A stretch of 30,820 nt of DNA from a virus: the IMG/VR virus record IMGVR_UViG_3300003885_000855, positions 1-30,820 of that record; one strand, given 5' to 3'. The first letter of the stretch is position 1. The number at the start of each line of letters is the position of its first letter. Shown piece by piece: positions 3,064-25,647 of this stretch. The notes under the pieces are model-generated. The model ran no database searches and was not told the origin of the DNA. It saw only the letters and a program-made list of their open reading frames with translations. A program made the position numbers and the translations under genes.

Positions 3064-4842
3064 ATGAGACCCACAAAAACGATAATCGGAAAAAAATCAT
3101 TGGAAGCTATTACCAAAGGCGTAAATGCAATTTATATTCCTGTTTCAAAAACTCTCGGTCCGAACGGGAAAAACGCTCTCCTCTACCGAAGTTATAATCG
3201 CGGGAGCCGTATCACCAATGACGGCTATACTGTTGCCGAAGTGCAGGAACCAAAAAATCCTTTTGTTCGGCTTGTCGCTTTAACTTTCAAAGAAATGTGT
3301 AAAAAGACAAACGAGAAAATCGGAGACGGCACAACCGGCACGGCGGTAATCGGCGGGATATTGTGGAATAAAGTTTATAAACTTCTTAGCGAGGGGCAAA
3401 GCGAATTTACAGCCAAAAAATCAGGTCAAGTTTCCGTAATTGCCATTAAAAGAAAAATACTTGAAACCGCTAAAATCGTAAAAAAGAAAATTAGGGAAGT
3501 TGCTAAAAAGATTGAAACCTTAGAAGATTTGGAAAAAATCGCCGTTGTTTCTGTTGAAGACGAGAAGTTAGGAAAGGTAGTCGCGAAAATGGCTTGGGAT
3601 GTCGGAATGGACGGATATATTGATGTCGTTGAGGGATATAAGGGAGAAATTGAAACCGAAGTTATCAAAGGAATGAGATTTCCCGCGAAAATCGCTGACA
3701 AAGCGTTTCTCACAAATAAAGAAAAGTTTGAAATGATTGCTCAAGACAGCCACATACTTATAACTAATTACGCTCTTGATAATACTGGAATGATATCAGC
3801 GCCGTTTCAAGAAATAAGTAAGAAAACAACAAAACTAATCGTGGTTGCTCCGTCTTTTTCCGAAAATGTTTTGGTAAATATGATTAAAGCGATAAAGAAT
3901 GGATTTTTCATTTATCCAGTTTTTGCTCCTTCTATGCGGACAGAACAGATGGAAGATTTAGCTGTTTATTGCAAAGCTAATTTAATTGATAAACACAAAG
4001 GCAAACTTTTTAAAAATATCACATTTGAAGATTTGGGCTGGCTGGAAAAACTTGTTGTAAAAGACACCGAAGCCAAAGAGGAAGCAGTGGCTCTTGGAGG
4101 ACGGGGAGCGATTGAAGAAAAACAAATGTCTTACGGAAAAATTGATGTGGAAGAAAACGGACAAACAAAAAAGAAAAATGTAATGGCGGAAACAATCACT
4201 TCTCCCGTTCAGGAAAGAATAGAAATTCTTAAAGGACAGTTAGCGGAAACCCGTCAAGACCAGTATAAAAAGTTAATGCAAAGAAGAATAGCGAGTATGG
4301 CTTCCGCAGTCGGAGTTATTCGGGTCGGCGATTCAACGCAAGCATCCGCTCTTTACTTGAAACTTAAACTTGATGACGCTGTTTACGCTTGCAAGGCGGC
4401 GTTAAAAGGCGGTTATGTAAAAGGAGGCGGACTTTGCTTAAAAGAAATTGCCGATAAACTTGAAGACGATATTCTAAAACCAGCCCTACTCGCTCCTTAC
4501 GAACAGATACAAGCCAGCGCCGAAGACGGAGTTGAGATTACAGATAATATTATAGACCCTGCTGACGCGGTATATTACGCGGTGGAACACGCAACACAGG
4601 TTGTTGCTAATTTGATAACTGTTGATGTTATTACTCCCGAAGTTGATGATATTCCTCCGGGCGACGGCTACCTCGCAATGGCAAGAGCATTGGGCGAGAT
4701 GTCTATTTCTCTCCGCAGGCATTTCGGGCAGTTAAAAGAAAACGAAGAAGAAATGGCAAGAGATAAAATGGAAAGGTTTATATTAACAGGCGAACTTGAA
4801 ACCGATGAATTGGTTGAAGTGTCGGGTCATAGTGATTGGTAA
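3064..4842 (+). CDS. groEL: Phage-encoded group I chaperonin (GroEL-like)
   Basis: An ATP-driven folding chamber subunit. The 592-residue protein is slightly longer than the usual ~545. The equatorial ATP site is present: LGPNGKN (31-37), TNDG (51-54), GDGTT (87-91, with the catalytic-loop Asp88), the catalytic Asp in LDDAVYACKAAL before a GGG turn, and a late DPADAV segment. The middle (apical) part is divergent, the GGM-repeat tail is absent and the protein ends in an acidic, non-repetitive segment. No groES is visible nearby, so it may use the host cochaperonin or act without one, as has been described for some phage chaperonins. It sits just before the terminase genes, so a role in folding capsid or tail proteins is likely. 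Family assignment is firm; role is inference. Confidence 0.93.
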   Translation: MRPTKTIIGKKSLEAITKGVNAIYIPVSKTLGPNGKNALLYRSYNRGSRITNDGYTVAEVQEPKNPFVRLVALTFKEMCKKTNEKIGDGTTGTAVIGGILWNKVYKLLSEGQSEFTAKKSGQVSVIAIKRKILETAKIVKKKIREVAKKIETLEDLEKIAVVSVEDEKLGKVVAKMAWDVGMDGYIDVVEGYKGEIETEVIKGMRFPAKIADKAFLTNKEKFEMIAQDSHILITNYALDNTGMISAPFQEISKKTTKLIVVAPSFSENVLVNMIKAIKNGFFIYPVFAPSMRTEQMEDLAVYCKANLIDKHKGKLFKNITFEDLGWLEKLVVKDTEAKEEAVALGGRGAIEEKQMSYGKIDVEENGQTKKKNVMAETITSPVQERIEILKGQLAETRQDQYKKLMQRRIASMASAVGVIRVGDSTQASALYLKLKLDDAVYACKAALKGGYVKGGGLCLKEIADKLEDDILKPALLAPYEQIQASAEDGVEITDNIIDPADAVYYAVEHATQVVANLITVDVITPEVDDIPPGDGYLAMARALGEMSISLRRHFGQLKENEEEMARDKMERFILTGELETDELVEVSGHSDW

Positions 4843-5254: not shown

Positions 5255-5608
5255 ATGGCAACACCAAAACAACAAAAATTGATTAAACTGCTCTTGGAGA
5301 ATCTTGGGAAACAGGGAAAAACAAAATCTCTTGGTAAATTGATATTAGAAGCGGGATATACAAAAGCAATGGCTAAAAATCCTCAAATGATTTTAGAGAG
5401 CCAAACAATAAAAGAAGGGTTAAGTGATTTTGTAAAAGATATGATAGAAAGAAGAAAGAAAGCGTTGTCTGAAATAACCGACAGTAAATTAAAATCATCC
5501 CAAGCAAGAGATTTATCAAACATTGTTGATACATTAACAAAAAACATTCAACTCTTATCAGGAGGAAATACTGAAAAGAGCGAGATGAAAATATCGTGGA
5601 AGAAATAA
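5255..5608 (+). CDS. terS: Terminase small subunit (probable)
   Basis: DNA-recognition component of the packaging motor. Starts at the ATG at 5255 (MATPKQQKLIKLLLENLGKQ); a GTG 18 bases upstream is an alternative. The segment LGKLILEAGYTKAMAKNPQM looks like the helix-turn-helix seen in small terminases (AGYT in place of AGYS), followed by a long helical, Lys-rich region suited to ring assembly. The length (117 residues) is usual to short for the family. It overlaps the large subunit gene by 13 bases, which is the strongest argument for the call. Confidence 0.75.
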   Translation: MATPKQQKLIKLLLENLGKQGKTKSLGKLILEAGYTKAMAKNPQMILESQTIKEGLSDFVKDMIERRKKALSEITDSKLKSSQARDLSNIVDTLTKNIQLLSGGNTEKSEMKISWKK

Positions 5609-6855
5609 TTCAAATTCCATATAAACCAAGAGAATGGACAAAATCTTTGCACGAAGATAAAGAAAGGTGGAAAGTAGTTGTCGCACACCGGAGGGCTGGA
5701 AAAACAGTCGCAACACTTAACCATTTACAAAGAGATGCTTTGACAATTCCAAATTCCCGTTTTGCTTACATTGCTCCAACTTACAAACAGAGCAAGAACA
5801 TTGCTTGGGATTTACTCAAATATTATGCAAGACCAATTCCCGGTGTTAAGTTTAATGAGGCGGAGTTAAGAGTTGATTATCCCAATGGTTCAAGAATAAC
5901 TTTATATGGAGCAGACAATCCCGACAGTTTAAGAGGATTAGGATTATGGGGAGTTGGTTTTGACGAATACAGCCAACAGCCGTCTAACATATTTACGGAA
6001 ATTATCCGTCCGGCATTGGCAGATCATAAAGGATATGCAATATGGATTGGAACTCCCAAAGGCAAAAATGAGTTTTACCGGCTTTACGAACTCGGTAAAA
6101 AAGAAGAAAACTGGCTTGCTCTTTTCTTAACGGTTGATGATACCAAACTAATCAGCGAAGAAGAATTAAAAGACGCGCGTAAGTTAATGAGCGAGGATGA
6201 ATATCAGCAAGAATGGTTTTGTAGTTTTGAGGCAAGTATTCAAGGGGCTTACTACGCCAAAGAGATAGCCAAAGCAAGAGAAGAAGGAAGGATTTGTTCA
6301 GTCCCTTATGATGAATTTGCGGAAGTCCACACTTGGTGGGATATAGGAATAGGCGACAGCACGGCGATTGGTTTTTTTCAAAGGGTTGGCAGAGAATGGC
6401 ATTGGATTGATTATTATGAAGCAAGCGGTGAGGGACTAGAATTTTATGTTAAGATGTTAAAGGATAAGGATTATAATTACGGAAAACATTATGTTCCGCA
6501 CGATGCCAAAGCAAGAGAAAAAGGAAGCGGTAAAAGTTATGTTGAAGTAGGAAAGGAATTAGGCATTAACTTTGAGATAGTCCCTAAACTTTCAATCTTT
6601 CAAGGAATAAACACAGTAAGGATGAAGTTTAATACTTTGTGGATTGACGAGAAGAAATGTGAAAAAGGGCTTGATGCTCTCTCTCAGTATCGCAAAGAGT
6701 GGAATGATAAAATGGGCTGTTTCAAAACAAATCCATTGCACGATTGGACTTCCCACGCCGCGGATATGATTAGATATTGGGGAACAACTAATTTTACTTC
6801 AGGACAGCAGGTAAAAATAATCCGCCCCCAATGGAAAGGATTTAACAGATTATGA
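5596..6855 (+). CDS. terL: Terminase large subunit (packaging ATPase and nuclease)
   Basis: The motor that pumps DNA into the prohead and cuts it. Starts at the GTG at 5596 inside the small subunit gene. The ATPase half has Walker A AHRRAGKT (30-37), Walker B LWGVGFDEY (117-125, D123/E124) and a coupling motif WIGTPKGKN (150-158). The RNase H-like nuclease half has acidic residues in WWDIGIGDST (D249, D254), VPHDAK (D303) and HDWTSHAADM (D383, D390). The 419-residue length is normal. It ends in TGA overlapping the next ATG. Assignment is firm. Confidence 0.95.
   Translation: MEEIIQIPYKPREWTKSLHEDKERWKVVVAHRRAGKTVATLNHLQRDALTIPNSRFAYIAPTYKQSKNIAWDLLKYYARPIPGVKFNEAELRVDYPNGSRITLYGADNPDSLRGLGLWGVGFDEYSQQPSNIFTEIIRPALADHKGYAIWIGTPKGKNEFYRLYELGKKEENWLALFLTVDDTKLISEEELKDARKLMSEDEYQQEWFCSFEASIQGAYYAKEIAKAREEGRICSVPYDEFAEVHTWWDIGIGDSTAIGFFQRVGREWHWIDYYEASGEGLEFYVKMLKDKDYNYGKHYVPHDAKAREKGSGKSYVEVGKELGINFEIVPKLSIFQGINTVRMKFNTLWIDEKKCEKGLDALSQYRKEWNDKMGCFKTNPLHDWTSHAADMIRYWGTTNFTSGQQVKIIRPQWKGFNRL
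6841..6853 (+). repeat. 13-base direct repeat at the ends of terL and the next gene
   Basis: TTTAACAGATTAT occurs at 6841-6853 (end of terL, followed by GA) and again at 7128-7140 (end of the 96-residue gene, followed by AA). Both copies encode the C-terminus FNRL in the same frame and are preceded by purine-rich sequence. A footprint of insertion is possible. Confidence 0.5.
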
Positions 6856-11710: not shown

Positions 11711-11754
11711 ATGCCAATTGGAGGATTTACAGGAGAACTCAGTCCTGATGCGGT
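11711..11754 (+). CDS. Major capsid protein, exon 1
   Basis: The capsid gene is interrupted by a group I intron. Exon 1 starts at the ATG at 11711 and codes MPIGGFTGELSPDA plus two bases of the next codon. Read straight on, the frame meets TAA after two more codons, so it only makes sense when spliced. The 5' splice site after T11754 is set by a predicted P1 helix: GCGGT/TAG pairs with the internal guide CTTAGCCGC at 11763-11771, giving the U.G pair at the cut that group I introns require. Joined to exon 2 it restores the expected N-terminus. The exact junction is a prediction. Confidence 0.6.
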
Positions 11755-12680
11755 TAGTTAATCTTAGCCGCTATCCACAGTAATGTGGACGAAAATAATC
11801 TCTTCTAATCAATTGGGAAAGTCCTGAAGAGGATAACCCACAGCAAGTTTAAAGACAGCTGCAGAGACTAAGTGAAGAGACCCCTAAAAATTAGGGTGAT
11901 GCGATAGTTAAATAGTGATTAACAATTAAATATCTAACGCCTTTGGCGAGAATATGAAAATAAACAAACAAATTAGTTCTTTGGAAATTTTAATACCAAT
12001 GATTTTAGGAGATGGATATATTCGGAAAAAGAAAAATGCTTATTTTGAATTTTGTCATTCTTATAAACAGAAAGAATATGCTTTATGGAAGCTTGAATTA
12101 TTAAAAAGATATTGTAGTGTGCGAAAATTTAAGTTTGGAGACAAAAAACACAATCCACCACAAGTCTTTGTAAGAACTTCAGTTCACCATAAAATAAATT
12201 CTGCTTACAGGAAAACCTACGAAAATGGCAAAAAAGTAGTAAAAAATGAAGCATTAAAACGAATAACACCATTAAGTCTTGCTATTTGGTATATGGATGA
12301 TGGAACAGCTCTTAAGAAATACAAAACAAGAAAAGGACTGCCAAAAAAAAATCCATATATTGCCCAAATTAGACTTTGCACCCATTCTTTTTCTTTTGAA
12401 GAAAATAATTTGATTAAAAATTATTTTAGGCAAAAATTTGGATTAAATTTCCGAATTTACAGAGACAGAAAATTTTTTTATTTGTCTTGTGTAGGAAAGA
12501 ATGAAGTTAATAAATTTATTGGTATTGTTCAAAAATATATGGCATTGTGTCCTTCAATGTTATATAAAATCACTATTTAAACCGAACCCCATATAACAAA
12601 AAGAAAATGGGGAACTACACAGAAATGATGTAGTCCCAACAAAAGTTGGAGTAACAAAGTCGTAAGACCGCTATAGACAG
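11755..12680 (+). ncRNA. Group I self-splicing intron in the capsid gene
   Basis: About 926 bases. The core boxes appear in order: P-like ATTGGGAAAGTCC (11813-11825), Q-like GATAACCCACAGCAAG (11832-11847), R-like GCAGAGACTAAGTG (11861-11874) and S-like GATGTAGTCCC (12627-12637). GACTA of R pairs with TAGTC of S to form P7. A P2-like hairpin TCCAC-AGTAAT-GTGGA sits at about 11775-11790. The homing endonuclease gene lies between R and S, that is in the P8 region. The 3' end is placed at G12680 because this is the G that keeps the spliced frame open. Subclass is not assigned. Confidence 0.82.
11954..12580 (+). CDS. LAGLIDADG homing endonuclease inside the intron
   Basis: A double-motif homing endonuclease of 208 residues that would cut intron-less capsid alleles and spread the intron. 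Motif 1 is LIPMILGDGYI (13-23, with the catalytic acid D20) and motif 2 is LSLAIWYMDDGTAL (107-120, D115/D116). The two halves with basic linkers (KNAYFEFCHSYKQKEYALWK; YIAQIRLCTHSFSFEENN) are typical of the LAGLIDADG DNA-endonuclease fold. Base composition is AT-richer than the capsid exons, in keeping with separate origin. It is intact, so the element is probably still mobile. Confidence 0.92.
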   Translation: MKINKQISSLEILIPMILGDGYIRKKKNAYFEFCHSYKQKEYALWKLELLKRYCSVRKFKFGDKKHNPPQVFVRTSVHHKINSAYRKTYENGKKVVKNEALKRITPLSLAIWYMDDGTALKKYKTRKGLPKKNPYIAQIRLCTHSFSFEENNLIKNYFRQKFGLNFRIYRDRKFFYLSCVGKNEVNKFIGIVQKYMALCPSMLYKITI

Positions 12681-13584
12681 CGTTATGTTCGAGGAATACA
12701 GCCGCGAACAACAGCCGCAGTATTTACGCGCTTCGGATGAGTTTTTCTACAAACAGAGTTCAATGGAAGGCAAAACCTCTTTTATTTGGGATGAAGATTC
12801 CAATGTAGGAGAGTTCCAGAAAACGGATGAACAGGAAGAAATCTTGAATACTGATACTCGCATCGGAAACCAAACGACCAAAGCTTCCCAGAAATACACC
12901 AAGCAGGTGCCTATTTCCGATGAAGCGTTTAGAGCAGACCAAGTCGGAAAACGAGCGAAAATCGGACAACAGGTCGGAGACAGAGCAAGAATGACACAGG
13001 ATAAACGGGCAGTTCTTGACACTTACGGAGACGCTTTTGCCGGTTCCGTGAACACCACACCTGACGGGCAGCCGTTAGCAGACAACTCCCATGTTCTTTT
13101 GGGGACAGGCGGAACGCTTGATAACCTTGAGACAGGAGCATTAAACGCGGATAACGCTTGGACTTCCGTAACGAGTTTAGCTAACCAGAAAGGACAGGAT
13201 GGAGACGCGGGTTCTCATGTATTTGAGGGGCTTCTTGTTCCTTTCACTCTTTACAAGACTGCGAAAGAGACATTGAACTCTACTCTTGTGCCGTTTAGCG
13301 GGGAGAACCAAATCAACATCTTTGATACGGATTACGGTTCAGTAAGGATTTACGCTTCCATTTTCCTTGGTTCAACCTATAACTCGGCATCCAACGCTAA
13401 CACTTCCCACCACTTTGTTTCAAGGAACCATATGATTCAAAGAAAGGTTTTCTACGGACTTTACACCAAACTTCTCATGCCTGAAAGCTCGGAAAATGAT
13501 TCTTACCGCTTGCGTTCAAAGTTCCACGAGACAGCCTTTCCGGGTTCTTGGACAGGGTATTTGGGAAATAATGGCACTACTTGA
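12681..13584 (+). CDS. Major capsid protein, exon 2 (HK97-type fold probable)
   Basis: Exon 2 supplies nearly all of the capsid subunit: with exon 1 the product is about 315 residues. The ATG at 12685 looks like a start (MFEEYSREQQPQYLRASDEF) but is internal once the intron is removed. It contains a charged helical N-arm, VPISDEAFRADQVGKRAKIG, AFAGSVNTTPDGQPLADNSH, and a C-terminal axial-type segment (GSVRIYASIFLGSTYNSASN) ending GSWTGYLGNNGTT. The TPDGQPLADNSHVLL loop is the kind of sequence seen in capsid proteins of Mu gpT-like or HK97-like phages. Position after scaffold and decoration genes agrees. Confidence 0.8.
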
Positions 13585-19579: not shown

Positions 19580-21160
19580 GTGCCATTAACACCACAACAA
19601 AGAGAAAAGAGAATTGACGAAATGTCGCAAGGCAAGGGCTTTGCTTCTTTGACTGCCGCCCAGAAAGCCAGCATATATGACACGGACACAAAACCCGTTG
19701 CCTTTGTATCTGCCAAACAAGGAGAAAGGGCGGTAAAGAAAAGAGAGAATGAAGTAATGCCTAGAATTGCTCCTGTTGTTGAACCTTCCAAAGAACCCGC
19801 AAAATCTGTTGTTGGACCAACGAAAGAACCTGCAAAAGAGCCAGCAGGACTTACCGCCGCGGATATTTCCGCCACAGGAGAAAACATTTCTGACTACGAA
19901 AGGCAAGCAGACGGCTCTTATGTTTTAAAAACTCCCAAAACCGAATTAGACATAGAACTGGAAAAAGCGAGGACGGAAGCGGAACAAGCCAAAACAGAAG
20001 TGGACACCGCTGTCAATCAATTAAAATCCTTTGACATCTCAAAAGACCCCGAATTACAGGGAATTATTTCCAGTATTACAGGACAATGGGACACCCGCAT
20101 AAGGCAAATGGAGCAGATAAACAAGAGCAGAGAGGCAAGTTTAAGGCAGAGGGGATTGAGAACGGGAGCCGCGAGATACACGGCGGGTTTTGGTGGGATT
20201 ATGTCTGCGACCGAGCAAGAGGGGCTGGCGAGAATTTCAGAGTTGGAAAGTAAAAAACAGTCAGCAATTACGCAAGCCCGCTCGGCTTTTAGAGCAAGAA
20301 AGTGGGACGAATACGCTAAGTTTGTAGACATCGCAGAGGGCAATTATAATCAGGAAATTAAGGAACTTAATGAATTGGGGAAGAGGGCGGTAGAGGAGAA
20401 TAAAAAGAGAGCGGAAAAAGAAAGAGTTTCAAGAAACGAGGATGCTGTTGCCAGTTTAATGGAAGATGGATTTACAGACCCGTTGGATATTTTTATCACA
20501 GCCAAAGAAGCGGGACTGGATATTTCGCCGGATGATATTGCTGACATAATAAAGGACTTAACTGGCGAGGAAGTGGAAAAAGAAGAAAAATGGCAGGATA
20601 AATTACTGACACCGAGCCAATGGACAACTTACCAAGTCCCGCCCGGAACTTCTTGGGGCAAACTCGCTGATATGCTTGAAAAGGGCGAGATTAAAATGCC
20701 GAGCAGGTATAGACCTAGAAAACCTGAAGCGGCTGAAACTTTGGAAACTGCCAGTAATACAGAAGTGCAAAGTATGGTAAATGATACTTTTAATTCTGAA
20801 TTTAGGAATGAATTGTTTAATACCCTTTCTGACGACCAGCTTCGTTGGTTTATGGTTGATTTCCGAGATACGATAAATGATGCACAAGGAAAAATGAGCA
20901 TTGACCCTGTTATATTTCCAAGCCAATTTTGGAAAGCGTGGAAAAAGCAAGCGGGGATTGGGGAAGAGGAAGTTAAAAAACAAAATATTGGAGACATCAA
21001 AAAAGATATATTAATTCAAGTCCAAGAAGATAAAGAATTTTACAGTAAAAAAGAATCTAAAAATCTAATGGTTTCCGACCTTGAAGAAACTTTTGGTTCT
21101 CCTTTGCCCCAAATAATAGAAGACGCCGTAAATGAAGCATTAGATGAAGTTTATAAATAA
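19580..21160 (+). CDS. Probable internal virion/ejection protein, 526 residues
   Basis: Starts at the GTG at 19580 (MPLTPQQREKRIDEMSQGKG). It has a Pro/Lys linker with KEPAK repeats (about 70-92), a long coiled-coil (ELEKARTEAEQAKTEVDTAV), a Gly/Ala-rich helix-breaking stretch with RQRGLRTGAARYTAGFGGIM (about 190-209), another coiled-coil and an acidic C-terminus (EDAVNEALDEVYK). The gene directly precedes, and overlaps by one base, the giant J-domain protein, an arrangement typical of podovirus internal proteins that are ejected into the host. No enzymatic motif is seen. Confidence 0.55.
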   Translation: MPLTPQQREKRIDEMSQGKGFASLTAAQKASIYDTDTKPVAFVSAKQGERAVKKRENEVMPRIAPVVEPSKEPAKSVVGPTKEPAKEPAGLTAADISATGENISDYERQADGSYVLKTPKTELDIELEKARTEAEQAKTEVDTAVNQLKSFDISKDPELQGIISSITGQWDTRIRQMEQINKSREASLRQRGLRTGAARYTAGFGGIMSATEQEGLARISELESKKQSAITQARSAFRARKWDEYAKFVDIAEGNYNQEIKELNELGKRAVEENKKRAEKERVSRNEDAVASLMEDGFTDPLDIFITAKEAGLDISPDDIADIIKDLTGEEVEKEEKWQDKLLTPSQWTTYQVPPGTSWGKLADMLEKGEIKMPSRYRPRKPEAAETLETASNTEVQSMVNDTFNSEFRNELFNTLSDDQLRWFMVDFRDTINDAQGKMSIDPVIFPSQFWKAWKKQAGIGEEEVKKQNIGDIKKDILIQVQEDKEFYSKKESKNLMVSDLEETFGSPLPQIIEDAVNEALDEVYK

Positions 21161-24100
21161 TGTCATTCTTATCAGACATAATCAGAAAAGTTCGGGAAAG
21201 GCGACTTACTCCCATTACTGATACTTTACGCCGTGTCCGCGAACGCAGATTTTCCAAACAAAGTATGTTCGGCGATTTTCAAGCGCCTCAAATTCCCACT
21301 GTTGATACTTCTATTCCTAGATTTCAAACTCCCGTTCCAAGTTTGCGAGATACGATAAAAAAAGTGAGGGAAAGGAGATTAAAGGGAATGTTTGGTGATT
21401 TCAAACCGATAAAATTTCCAACTCCTGAAAAGATATTTGAAACAGGAGCGAAACCTTTTGAGGGATTATCAGAAACCCGATTGGCACAGCAAGTCCAAAG
21501 AGTTAGTAAAGAAATTGAAGAAAAAATCGGCAAACCATTGAGCGCTTTTTTTGAAAGGCGGGTTAAAGCAGCCCCTGAATTGCCTAAGGGTATTTTTGTA
21601 AAATTCCCAATAAAAACTAAAAGAGCTTTTGAGGAAATTCTCGGGAAGAAACCAACAGAGGAAATAATTAAAACTAAAGAGGGAGGATTTTTACAAAAAA
21701 TAGGAATAAAAGAAATTACTCCTTATAGCAAACAAGTTATTGATTTGCAAGCACAAGGATTAACTCCTTTTAACGCCGCTTTGAGAGTTGGCAGTTTAGG
21801 AATTTTAGATGCCGCGATTGCCGGCAGTTGGTTAGACGGAGCGACTAAGTTTTTCTTACGAGGAACAAATCAAATAGCAGTTAAAAAACTAGCTTGGGAT
21901 ACATTAGGAAAGCACGAAACTTTGGAGGCGGCGAAAAAAGAATATAGAAGATTAGCTCACATTTACCACCCTGATAAAATGACTGGAAATGAAGAAATGT
22001 TTAAGAGAATAAACCAAGCGTGGGAAGTTCTTAATAAATATGGAATGCCGACTTTATTGGAACAGAAAGCCATATTGCCAGCTAGAACTTTTGCTAAGCG
22101 TTTGATAACTCCGATTACAGAAGCAGTATCGCCAGAAGCCGCAGAATTTGTTGGATTAAAGGGATTATTGCCAAGAGAAGCGGGAACAATACCAGAGAAG
22201 CCATTTCAACCTAAACTTAAAGTAAAATTTGGACTTGGCATTGAAGAAGTGCCAGCCAGAAGAATTTCGGATTTGAAAGAAACAGCAAAGAATATAACCA
22301 AAGAAATTGCTAAACAAGGCGGTGATGTTGCTCAAGCAAAAAACATTGCGAACCAAATAGCAATTTCTACATCAGCGAGAGAGGCGGGAAAATTCCTAAC
22401 CCAATTAAAAGATTTGGCAAAGCCAGAAATCCCCAAAGAAGAAGCAACAATTGAAACGCGGATAAAAGAGGATTTTGACCGCGCCGAATCAGAAGTTTTG
22501 ACAGAACTTGAATTATCTAAGCCGGGCAGAAGAGTTTTAACAGAAACAGGAGAATTTATTGTCGAAAAATCAACTTTTCCGGATTATGTGCCATCGGAAT
22601 TGAGAAACAGTAAGTTGTTTGCCGAGGTTTCAAAACTCACTCTTGATAAAGAAGCACCCAAAACAAAAAGACAAAAAGCTCTTGTAAATGTAATTTCACA
22701 AGAAATCGTAAATAGAATGGATATAGCTCTTGCCGATGAAAAAGCCACGAATGAATTTCTTATAAGTTTAGATGCAAAACAGGAAGCCGAAACAAATAAA
22801 TTTCTCAAAGATATTAAACAAGAAATCATTAAGAAAATAAAAGAAAAACGATTTACTGTTAAACAGGTTGTTCGTATCAAGGAAGTTGCCGCGAAAAAAC
22901 TTCTAGCCGAGAAAATAAAAAGCGTAGAAAGATTAGCAATTTCAAAAGCTGATAAACAAGCCAAAATACAGCAATTGGAAAGTGAATTTAAAATAAGACA
23001 AGAAAAAGCCGTTCGTAAAGAACAATTAAAAACATTAAAAGTTGGAATTACAGAAAGGATAAAAGGAATTGAAAAAGGATTGAGGGAGGGAAAAATAATA
23101 ACAAAGGAAGAGATTAAGGAATTTCAAACTACGGCTTTGGAAACCATAGAAAAATCAAATTTAGATGCAAATGACAGAGATAAATTTAGCCGAAAGGTCA
23201 AAAACATCCAAACACAAGAACAACTACAGAAAGCTCTCCCTGATATAAAAGAAAGAATTATCCAACTTGAACACGCCGAAATCAAAAGAGGTTTAGTTTC
23301 TCAAATAGACAAAGAATTGAAAAATATCAAACCCGTAAAAAAGGGGACTATTAAGGTTGCGAGATACGACTACGAAACAAACAAATTTTTACAGGAGATA
23401 AAAGACATCAACAAAATTACGCAAGAGGATGCTGAAAAAACCTTAGCAAACATTTTGAAAAAGGACAATTTGAGCAGAGCCGATATTATTAAAAACAGGC
23501 TTCTTTCATACAAAATGAATGGAGCTAAAAGCTCGCTTGCTTTGGTTGATAAAATACTTGCCGACATACAGGAATTAAAAGACATTGGATTGACTGCCAA
23601 AGATGAACTGGATTTTCAGAAAAAGCTTGAAAAGCAAGATAAAATAACCGAAGTTTTAGAGGGAATTAAAAATCAAAAAGAAACAATAATTGGATTAAAA
23701 ACACTTAAAAAAGTGTTTGGAAGCGGTATTGCTGATTTGTATTCATCTCTTAATTTAGTGGCTGGCAAAGACATAGCGGATAAATATAATTACGCTAGAT
23801 TTATTACTAAAAGTAATAACGATTACGGCATTCAATCAGACAATGCTGTTGAGAAAAGCAAGGAAATTTATAAACTTGAAAGCAATAGACAATTAGATAA
23901 AATTTTTATTGAAAGATTGGCTCCTCAAGATTTTGAGATTGAAGGACAGGACGGCTTCGTGGAAAAGATTAGCCGTTTTGACATAATGAATATATACAAT
24001 GGATTAAAAAATGATTTAAGAAAAGAACAATTTTATAACGCTTTTGGCGAAGACCAAACAAACGACTTAATAAGCAAATTATCTTCCGAAGACAAAACTT

Positions 24101-25647
24101 TGGCAGACTTTAGAATGGAGCAAGTCCAAGAATATAGAGATATATTAAACCAAAGGAGCATTGAACTTACCGGTATGGATATGGGGCAGGTGGAGAATTA
24201 CTGGCCGTCAACATCTGAACATCTAATAGAATTTTTTGATGATATAAAAAAACAAAGCGAAATTCCGGGCGCCATTAAAGCAAGAATACAAAGTAAAAAC
24301 ATCGTTCCTAAAATGACAAATGGCTGGTTATTGGCGGACAGGCACATTGCTCAAGCGGAACATATAAAATCAGTAAGCGGAAAATACGAAGAATTAAAAA
24401 ATCTTTTTAGCGACAGAACAGTTGAAAAAAATATTAGACAAAAATACGGAGATGCTATTTACAATACTTTAATGCACCACATTGAAACTTTTTCTCTTAA
24501 TCAAAGAACTGAATTACTTGATATTTTCCAAAAAGGATATAACAAAGTTATCAATAATTGGGTGCAAGCGAAAATATTCACGCCTACAATTATGGCAAGA
24601 CAAACAATTTCTTCCGTTTATTCTATCGGAGAAGTAGGCGCGAAAAACTTTTTCAAATATCAAAAAGAAGCTTTGAGCAATCCTAAAGAAGCTTTTAACC
24701 TTATTTGGAACAATGCCCCTTTTGTTAAGGCTCGTTTTAAAAGAGGTTATTCAGAAGCTTTGCACGATGTTATCAGAGGAACAAAAAAGATTGACTTGGG
24801 AATGAAGAGCTTGACTAAATATATTACACTTCCAGCTCGCAGTAGTGATATTGCAGGGTTGATTATAAATGGTTATCCTATTATAAAAACAAACTTAGCG
24901 AAAGGTAAAACAATGGAGCAAGCTATCGCTGAATTTGAAAAGTTTAGCGAAAGAACACAAGGTTCGCCAACTCTGGCAAATTTATCCGTTGCTCAAAGAA
25001 GTAAAAACCCGTTCGTTAGAACATTTTTTAGATTTAAAAATACTCTTAACCAATTATTAAGACTTCAAGTTGATGCCAATATACAGCTAGCCAACAAACA
25101 AATATCACCGCAAGAATGGGGGACCAAGACATTTTTATATTCAATATATACGCCAATGATGTATGTTTTATTAGGATATGCTGTTAGACAGGGATGGAAA
25201 AAAATATTTGGCACAGATGATGAAGAAGAAAGTAAAAGTTTGTTAGGAGATATATTAGAAAATATAATAATCCAACCATTTAAAGCTGTACCATTATTAG
25301 GAGATGTATTTGAAAATCTTTATCAAGAAACAAGAAAAAAGATAACTGGCAAAAAAACTTATGGTAATTTAATTAGTCTCCCAATAATTGACGACTTAGA
25401 TAGAGCTAAGAATATAATATTTAAAAAAGAACTGACAACAGAAGATTTCTTAAAAGTATTAAGTATTGTACAAGAGCTATTTACAGGCTTTCCGACTGAA
25501 TCGGGATTAAGATATTATGGATATGCTACGAAAAAACAAAAAGTAAAACTTCCCACGAAAGGGAAGGGAAGAATTGACTTCTCAAAATACGGAAGGAAGA
25601 AAGACAAAAAAAGAATAAGGATTGATTTTTCTAAGTATAAACGGTAA
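21160..25647 (+). CDS. Giant virion/ejection protein with an embedded DnaJ domain, 1495 residues
   Basis: The largest gene of the window. The N-terminus has three KVRERR-type repeats (about 7-13, 23-30, 65-72) and two MFGDF motifs. Residues about 246-295 form a J domain: EYRRLAHIYHPDKMTGNEE with the diagnostic HPD at 270-272 and a fourth-helix end INQAWEVLNKYG. Long coiled-coil regions follow (about 380-830). The C-terminal third has FSERTQGSPTLANLSVAQR, a pattern I associate with large phage internal proteins, then a hydrophobic stretch (FLYSIYTPMMYVLLGYAVR, about 1324-1342) and a twice-repeated basic RIDFSKY at the end. Likely packaged and ejected; the J domain would recruit host DnaK at the entry site. 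Role is inference. Confidence 0.7.
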   Translation: MSFLSDIIRKVRERRLTPITDTLRRVRERRFSKQSMFGDFQAPQIPTVDTSIPRFQTPVPSLRDTIKKVRERRLKGMFGDFKPIKFPTPEKIFETGAKPFEGLSETRLAQQVQRVSKEIEEKIGKPLSAFFERRVKAAPELPKGIFVKFPIKTKRAFEEILGKKPTEEIIKTKEGGFLQKIGIKEITPYSKQVIDLQAQGLTPFNAALRVGSLGILDAAIAGSWLDGATKFFLRGTNQIAVKKLAWDTLGKHETLEAAKKEYRRLAHIYHPDKMTGNEEMFKRINQAWEVLNKYGMPTLLEQKAILPARTFAKRLITPITEAVSPEAAEFVGLKGLLPREAGTIPEKPFQPKLKVKFGLGIEEVPARRISDLKETAKNITKEIAKQGGDVAQAKNIANQIAISTSAREAGKFLTQLKDLAKPEIPKEEATIETRIKEDFDRAESEVLTELELSKPGRRVLTETGEFIVEKSTFPDYVPSELRNSKLFAEVSKLTLDKEAPKTKRQKALVNVISQEIVNRMDIALADEKATNEFLISLDAKQEAETNKFLKDIKQEIIKKIKEKRFTVKQVVRIKEVAAKKLLAEKIKSVERLAISKADKQAKIQQLESEFKIRQEKAVRKEQLKTLKVGITERIKGIEKGLREGKIITKEEIKEFQTTALETIEKSNLDANDRDKFSRKVKNIQTQEQLQKALPDIKERIIQLEHAEIKRGLVSQIDKELKNIKPVKKGTIKVARYDYETNKFLQEIKDINKITQEDAEKTLANILKKDNLSRADIIKNRLLSYKMNGAKSSLALVDKILADIQELKDIGLTAKDELDFQKKLEKQDKITEVLEGIKNQKETIIGLKTLKKVFGSGIADLYSSLNLVAGKDIADKYNYARFITKSNNDYGIQSDNAVEKSKEIYKLESNRQLDKIFIERLAPQDFEIEGQDGFVEKISRFDIMNIYNGLKNDLRKEQFYNAFGEDQTNDLISKLSSEDKTLADFRMEQVQEYRDILNQRSIELTGMDMGQVENYWPSTSEHLIEFFDDIKKQSEIPGAIKARIQSKNIVPKMTNGWLLADRHIAQAEHIKSVSGKYEELKNLFSDRTVEKNIRQKYGDAIYNTLMHHIETFSLNQRTELLDIFQKGYNKVINNWVQAKIFTPTIMARQTISSVYSIGEVGAKNFFKYQKEALSNPKEAFNLIWNNAPFVKARFKRGYSEALHDVIRGTKKIDLGMKSLTKYITLPARSSDIAGLIINGYPIIKTNLAKGKTMEQAIAEFEKFSERTQGSPTLANLSVAQRSKNPFVRTFFRFKNTLNQLLRLQVDANIQLANKQISPQEWGTKTFLYSIYTPMMYVLLGYAVRQGWKKIFGTDDEEESKSLLGDILENIIIQPFKAVPLLGDVFENLYQETRKKITGKKTYGNLISLPIIDDLDRAKNIIFKKELTTEDFLKVLSIVQELFTGFPTESGLRYYGYATKKQKVKLPTKGKGRIDFSKYGRKKDKKRIRIDFSKYKR

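Follow-up and report, generated by a model that had tools for sequence, protein, structure and literature searches.

The major capsid gene of an uncultivated tailed phage is, with high confidence, interrupted by a predicted self-splicing group I intron (positions 11755-12662), whose endonuclease would direct homing into the site between SPDA and xTAID. The gene lies in a virus sequence of 30,820 bases (IMG/VR record IMGVR_UViG_3300003885_000855), referred to as the window. Comparison with relatives provides the exon structure, the splice sites, the RNA fold, the presence or absence of the intron in relatives, and the family and intact motifs of the endonuclease (Table 1).

Table 1. Parts of the split capsid gene, with positions in the window.
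Feature	Position	Strand	Basis
Capsid exon 1, MPIGGFTGELSPDA + GT (14 codons + 2 bases)	11711-11754	+	sequence; in-frame N-terminus conserved in intron-less relatives
Group I intron, 908 nt, starts UAGUUA, ends ...AAAGUCG	11755-12662	+	covariance models, splice-pair enumeration
UAA stop in the exon-1 frame; its last base is intron nucleotide 7	11759-11761	+	sequence
Exon-2 guide UCUUA, forming P10 with UAAGA 12663-12667	11762-11766	+	pairing
Internal guide sequence GCCGC, forming P1 with exon-1 GCGGU 11750-11754, U.G at the splice site	11767-11771	+	pairing
Catalytic core P3-P4-P5-P6-P7(5')-P3(3')-P8-P7(3'; ends AUAGUU)	11794-11909	+	leave-window-out model, 107.1 bits; covariation
LAGLIDADG_2 homing endonuclease ORF, 208 aa, between P7 and P9	11954-12580	+	Pfam, PHROG, structure-sequence match
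P9, P9.1, short ORF-free P9.2-like hairpin (12636-12649), conserved AGUAACAA 3' end	12582-12662	+	covariation, family model
Capsid exon 2, first residues (V)-KTAIDSVMFEEY; protein of 321 aa after splicing	12663-13584	+	profile match, alignment of relatives

The capsid gene and its setting

The ORF at 12685-13584, whose start is set at ATG 12685 by a mechanical ORF finder, matches the Pfam family Phage_capsid_4 (PF25209, 7.1e-9), PF10124 (Mu gpT-like, 1.3e-4) and PHROG 371 (1e-6). Since a profile search also places a terminase gene at 5596-6855 of the same window, these matches identify a head gene of a tailed phage. Judged by sequence, the ORF together with exon 1 is the major capsid gene, of the Phage_capsid_4/Mu gpT-like type. 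No relatives of the capsid were found among named phages or in 84,980 GTDB genomes; the approximately 70 relatives compared here were drawn from IMG/VR. Two further genes of the window encode chaperone-related proteins: a phage-encoded GroEL-like chaperonin at 3064-4842, shortly upstream of the terminase (PHROG 5725, 2.9e-65; Pfam Cpn60, 3.7e-18), and a protein of 1,495 aa at 21160-25647, in which residues 251-292 match a DnaJ domain (Pfam, 1.7e-9), unusual for a phage structural region.

The endonuclease of the intron

The ORF within the intron encodes a full-length LAGLIDADG_2 domain (PF03161, 4.1e-37; residues 11-182 on model positions 2-163 of 168) and matches I-SceI structures nearly end to end (2.7e-10). 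With these it shares the paired LAGLIDADG motifs and their acidic residues, present here as ILGDGYI and WYMDDGT; however, the protein is approximately 36% identical to its nearest relatives, which are environmental, and its target site is a prediction. Some LAGLIDADG proteins are maturases, and the window protein could likewise be a splicing helper, or an inactive passenger, in an intron that still splices and no longer homes. The ORF directly adjoins P7, and it is the only LAGLIDADG example at this capsid site. We nevertheless consider a non-homing protein unlikely, as the ORF is full length and retains both catalytic acidic motifs, and as sibling introns at the same site do without a LAGLIDADG ORF. 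The preferred reading is that of an active homing endonuclease.

Exon boundaries and splice sites

Approximately 60 distinct intron-less capsids among the IMG/VR relatives read in frame through ...GG.T..LSPDA[VCT]xTAIDxV[ML][YF]EE[YF]... or close variants, such as an uninterrupted LSPDAVxTAIDxVMYEEY. Because these relatives read through, the exon-1 peptide MPIGGFTGELSPDA is the true N-terminus and the residues KTAIDSV preceding ATG 12685 are coding. A first-pass annotation of the window had named homologues that begin at MFEEY and lack the exon-1 stretch as evidence that would speak against a split gene; the intron-less homologues keep this stretch in frame. It had also anticipated that automated annotation would miss exon 1 and call a false start at 12685, as the mechanical ORF finder indeed does.

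To locate the splice sites, every in-frame pair with a U before the 5' site and a G before the 3' site was enumerated, and the resulting 19 pairs were scored by P1 and P10. The pair 11754/12663 scores highest, with 5 bp in each helix (runner-up: 5 and 1), and also restores the family sequence, SPDAV-K-TAIDSVMFEEY. P1 contains the pair U11754.G11767, the last base of the intron is G12662 (omega-G), and P10 pairs UAAGA with UCUUA. The first-pass annotation had correctly described exon 1 from ATG 11711 through 14 codons and GT, the 5' splice site after U11754, and the P1 helix GCGGU/GCCGC with its U.G pair. Its 3' site at 12681 does not hold: by sequence, the 3' splice site is 12662/12663, 18 nt upstream. 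Splicing of the same intron to 12681 would likewise preserve the frame and give an intron with a terminal G, but P10 is absent there, and the junction SPDA-V-V-MFEEY is wrong for this family, since it loses KTAIDS, six codons that the relatives carry and whose I4 and D5 are invariant in their alignment (A1). This alternative is very improbable.

RNA fold

The Rfam group I model RF00028 matches the window with 33.1 bits (E 2.2e-6 in a 1.2-kb search) in an alignment that spans the whole model. An Infernal search of this kind had been proposed as a check. The gathering score of 50, which is a detection cut-off and not a structural requirement, is missed by the window as well as by all same-site relatives, including those without an ORF. 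A covariance model built from the same-site introns without the window recovers its intron in two pieces around the ORF, with 107.1 and 53.2 bits (E 2e-24 and 1.5e-11). As the model matches both flanks, the window harbors the same intron lineage, interrupted by an endonuclease gene.

The core alignment consists of eight same-site introns with their ORFs removed (approximately 190 nt), onto which a structure derived from the window sequence (P3-P8, P7, P9, P9.1) is imposed. Of its cells, 87% are paired; 30 of the 45 pairs are changed on both sides, with 58 double-change cells. This level of covariation is reached by none of 500 shuffles, and sliding the 3' strands reduces pairing to 31-48%. The G-binding helix P7 within the P3-P8 core itself covaries (C-G/U-A, U-A/C-G, A-U/G-C). 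The P9 register of the window is unlike that of the other introns (46% of cells paired), and its last P7 pair, at the edge of the ORF insertion, is G.U (GACUA/UAGUU) and was counted against the fold. J7/3 is too short for P7.1/P7.2, which speaks against subgroup IA.

The covariation bears on the possibility that no splicing takes place, the capsid being translated from ATG 12685 and exon 1 being a leader peptide or a relic. A start codon is indeed present, and the unspliced frame from 11711 ends at 11761; yet in relatives that lack the intron the N-terminal stretch is part of the capsid frame, and the fold, P1 and P10 are maintained through compensatory changes across eight introns. We regard this possibility as most unlikely. 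Fold, covariation and endonuclease profile agree with the original proposal that a group I intron encoding an intact homing endonuclease splits the major capsid gene close to its start.

Introns at the same site

Introns at this site are found in eleven loci that represent eight distinct introns. The window intron (locus L109) carries the LAGLIDADG ORF. Two introns are without an ORF: one of 242 nt (L117, identical in L173 and near-identical in L027) and one of 231 nt (L149, identical in L150). The remaining five (L131, L154, L127, L159 and L180) carry HNH-type ORFs, those of L131 and L154 belonging to PHROG 8446; the HNH proteins are 38-57% identical to each other (BLASTP). All eight introns ligate to a family-like junction, [LM]SxDA[VCT][KQE]T[AE]I, with P10 weak or absent in L131 and L127. 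The first-pass annotation considered the short first exon notable; a first exon of this kind is common to all eight introns and follows from a homing site that is fixed. Scanning for further introns at the site with a DNA pattern gave 37 matches and no additional case. That the split gene is an assembly artefact fusing unrelated DNA is scarcely credible: the contig is metagenomic, but a second IMG/VR record, possibly of the same population, is identical over 8,897 nt with 0 mismatches, and seven other distinct introns occupy the same nucleotide or one next to it.

The hairpin that comes last before AGUAACAA holds the HNH ORFs in its loop. Its counterpart in the window is short and ORF-free, and the LAGLIDADG ORF is situated between the 3' strand of P7 and P9. 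The core of the window intron is 54-77% identical to those of the other same-site introns, whose mutual identities range from 50 to 79%. The simplest reading of these sequences is one intron lineage at one site, with endonuclease genes acquired separately. We also considered that the window intron arrived as a package from other LAGLIDADG introns; this is not supported, since its core identity lies within the same-site range, and since, by eye, the LAGLIDADG relatives L030, L037 and L050 have their ORF before P7 or P8 and not after P7.

Several relatives contain further candidate introns. In locus L268 (2646-4300) another capsid gene is interrupted near residue 135 (between TPDGQAL and ASSSH) by a second member of this intron family (97.7 bits), with a possible opposite-strand ORF (by eye); the N-terminal site of this gene is empty. 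The head gene that immediately precedes the capsid gene contains group I intron-like cores in L149 (1691-2322, with a LAGLIDADG_1 ORF) and L128 (2882-3572, with an HNH-like ORF). Locus L050 (2500-5170) has four group I intron-like matches within approximately 2.5 kb of one phage contig, one of them beside a LAGLIDADG_2 ORF.

The splice pair also varies with the target codon. At Val codons (GUN) the exon ends in GU and the U.G pair is formed. In three cases with a Cys codon (UGU) the predicted 5' site lies 1 nt upstream, after GCAU and before GU, which again yields U.G, and the 3' site is shifted by the same nucleotide. In L180, with a Thr codon (ACU), exon-end C and guide A would form a C.A pair, the rest of P1 and a 4-bp P10 being intact. 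The last exon base of group I introns is virtually always U and exceptionally C (PMC4227781). Finally, exon 1 runs into an in-frame stop codon in all eight introns; the stop lies within 2-13 nt of the 5' splice site, and its exact position differs between introns. Many group I introns of coding genes are known to have stops of this kind (PMC3984707). An exon of 14 codons may permit initiation without covering P1.

Distribution and free-standing HNH genes

Mapped onto a tree of 68 distinct capsids, the eight that bear the intron show maximal scatter: intron presence requires 8 changes, 8 of them forced by well-supported branches, and shows no clustering relative to shuffles. Filled and empty sites occur in close sisters, namely L131 (filled) and L129 (empty), with 84% and 89% DNA identity on the two sides, and L159 (filled) and L157 (empty), with 91% identity downstream. 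Scatter and filled/empty sister pairs are what homing predicts, and the sporadic distribution is consistent with an endonuclease that would cut the intron-less allele.

Several intron-less capsid loci (L005, L138, L152, L157 [= L158, L181], L161, L174 and L175) harbor a free-standing HNH gene whose end abuts the capsid start or overlaps it, approximately 40 nt from the intron site. With 28-38% identity (E 1e-16 to 1e-8), the HNH protein of L152 is distantly related to those of the introns, and L157, with a free-standing HNH, and L159, with an HNH intron, are close sisters by capsid sequence. None of the approximately 69 compared has both an intron and a free-standing HNH gene, with approximately 0.8 expected; mutual exclusion is not significant. 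The end of the free-standing HNH gene in L152 (AAGTAACAAA) was considered as a leftover intron 3' end; this idea was dropped because at that point in L157, which shares the HNH gene but lacks the intron, AAGTGAACTAA is part of the coding sequence. In L152 (3077-3130) the capsid frame also seems approximately 8 nt short at the homing-site region, between CAAACAGAG and TAGCATACGAG, immediately downstream of the free-standing HNH gene; the resulting frameshift may stem from faulty assembly or be a scar left by repair. The position of the free-standing HNH genes, abutting several intron-less capsids, resembles collaborative homing systems, where a free-standing endonuclease targets the intron insertion site (PMC3984707, PMC2988022).

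Proposed mechanism and relation to known systems

From these comparisons we infer splicing, cleavage of empty sites, homing and the role of the stop codon as follows. The late transcript would carry the intron 14 codons into the major capsid gene. A ribosome on exon 1 would halt at the in-frame UAA and leave the core untouched, so that the RNA can fold, its guide pairing with exon 1 (P1, with U.G) and exon 2 (P10). An exogenous G would then attack after U11754, and the second step would join U11754 to U12663 and bring the capsid codons back into frame (...SPDAVKTAIDSVMFEEY...). The intron would also give rise to the I-SceI-like LAGLIDADG_2 protein; in co-infecting relatives this enzyme would cut capsid alleles that lack the intron, between SPDA and xTAID, and repair of the cut allele would copy the intron in.

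That capsid genes are intron targets, as the first-pass annotation stated, is documented. The major capsid gene of the mycobacteriophage LittleE (Cluster J) contains a probable group I intron that carries a homing endonuclease ORF, and splicing of this intron was demonstrated by RT-PCR and N-terminal sequencing (PMC3706429). The arrangement is similar to the window in that an endonuclease ORF resides within a capsid intron. LittleE, however, belongs to another phage group, set apart by description; its ORF is on the opposite strand, and its 819-bp insertion lies towards the end of a long delta domain at the N-terminus, whereas the window site follows the first 14 codons of the gene and holds introns in eight lineages. 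A group I intron in the capsid gene of the lactococcal phage Tuc2009, again of another phage group by description, is cited in the same source (PMC3706429). Capsid introns with endonucleases are therefore already known; new are the hot spot with endonuclease exchange and the predicted site slide and C.A pair.

On balance, we favour the view that the first 20 capsid codons of this clade are a homing battleground: one intron lineage would have entered at least eight capsid lineages, with its endonuclease exchanged (HNH in P9.2, LAGLIDADG between P7 and P9, or none), free-standing HNH genes in some intron-less phages, a slide by 1 nt at Cys codons, and C.A in place of U.G at the Thr codon of L180. 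For the window phage and its siblings, the analysis corrects the capsid start where automatic annotation would err. One site with one intron lineage offers natural cases of endonuclease gain, loss and exchange, as well as three ways of preserving the pair at the 5' splice site as the target codon varies. Given these cases, a small natural set may serve to test how composite mobile introns originate and how much deviation the U.G rule tolerates.
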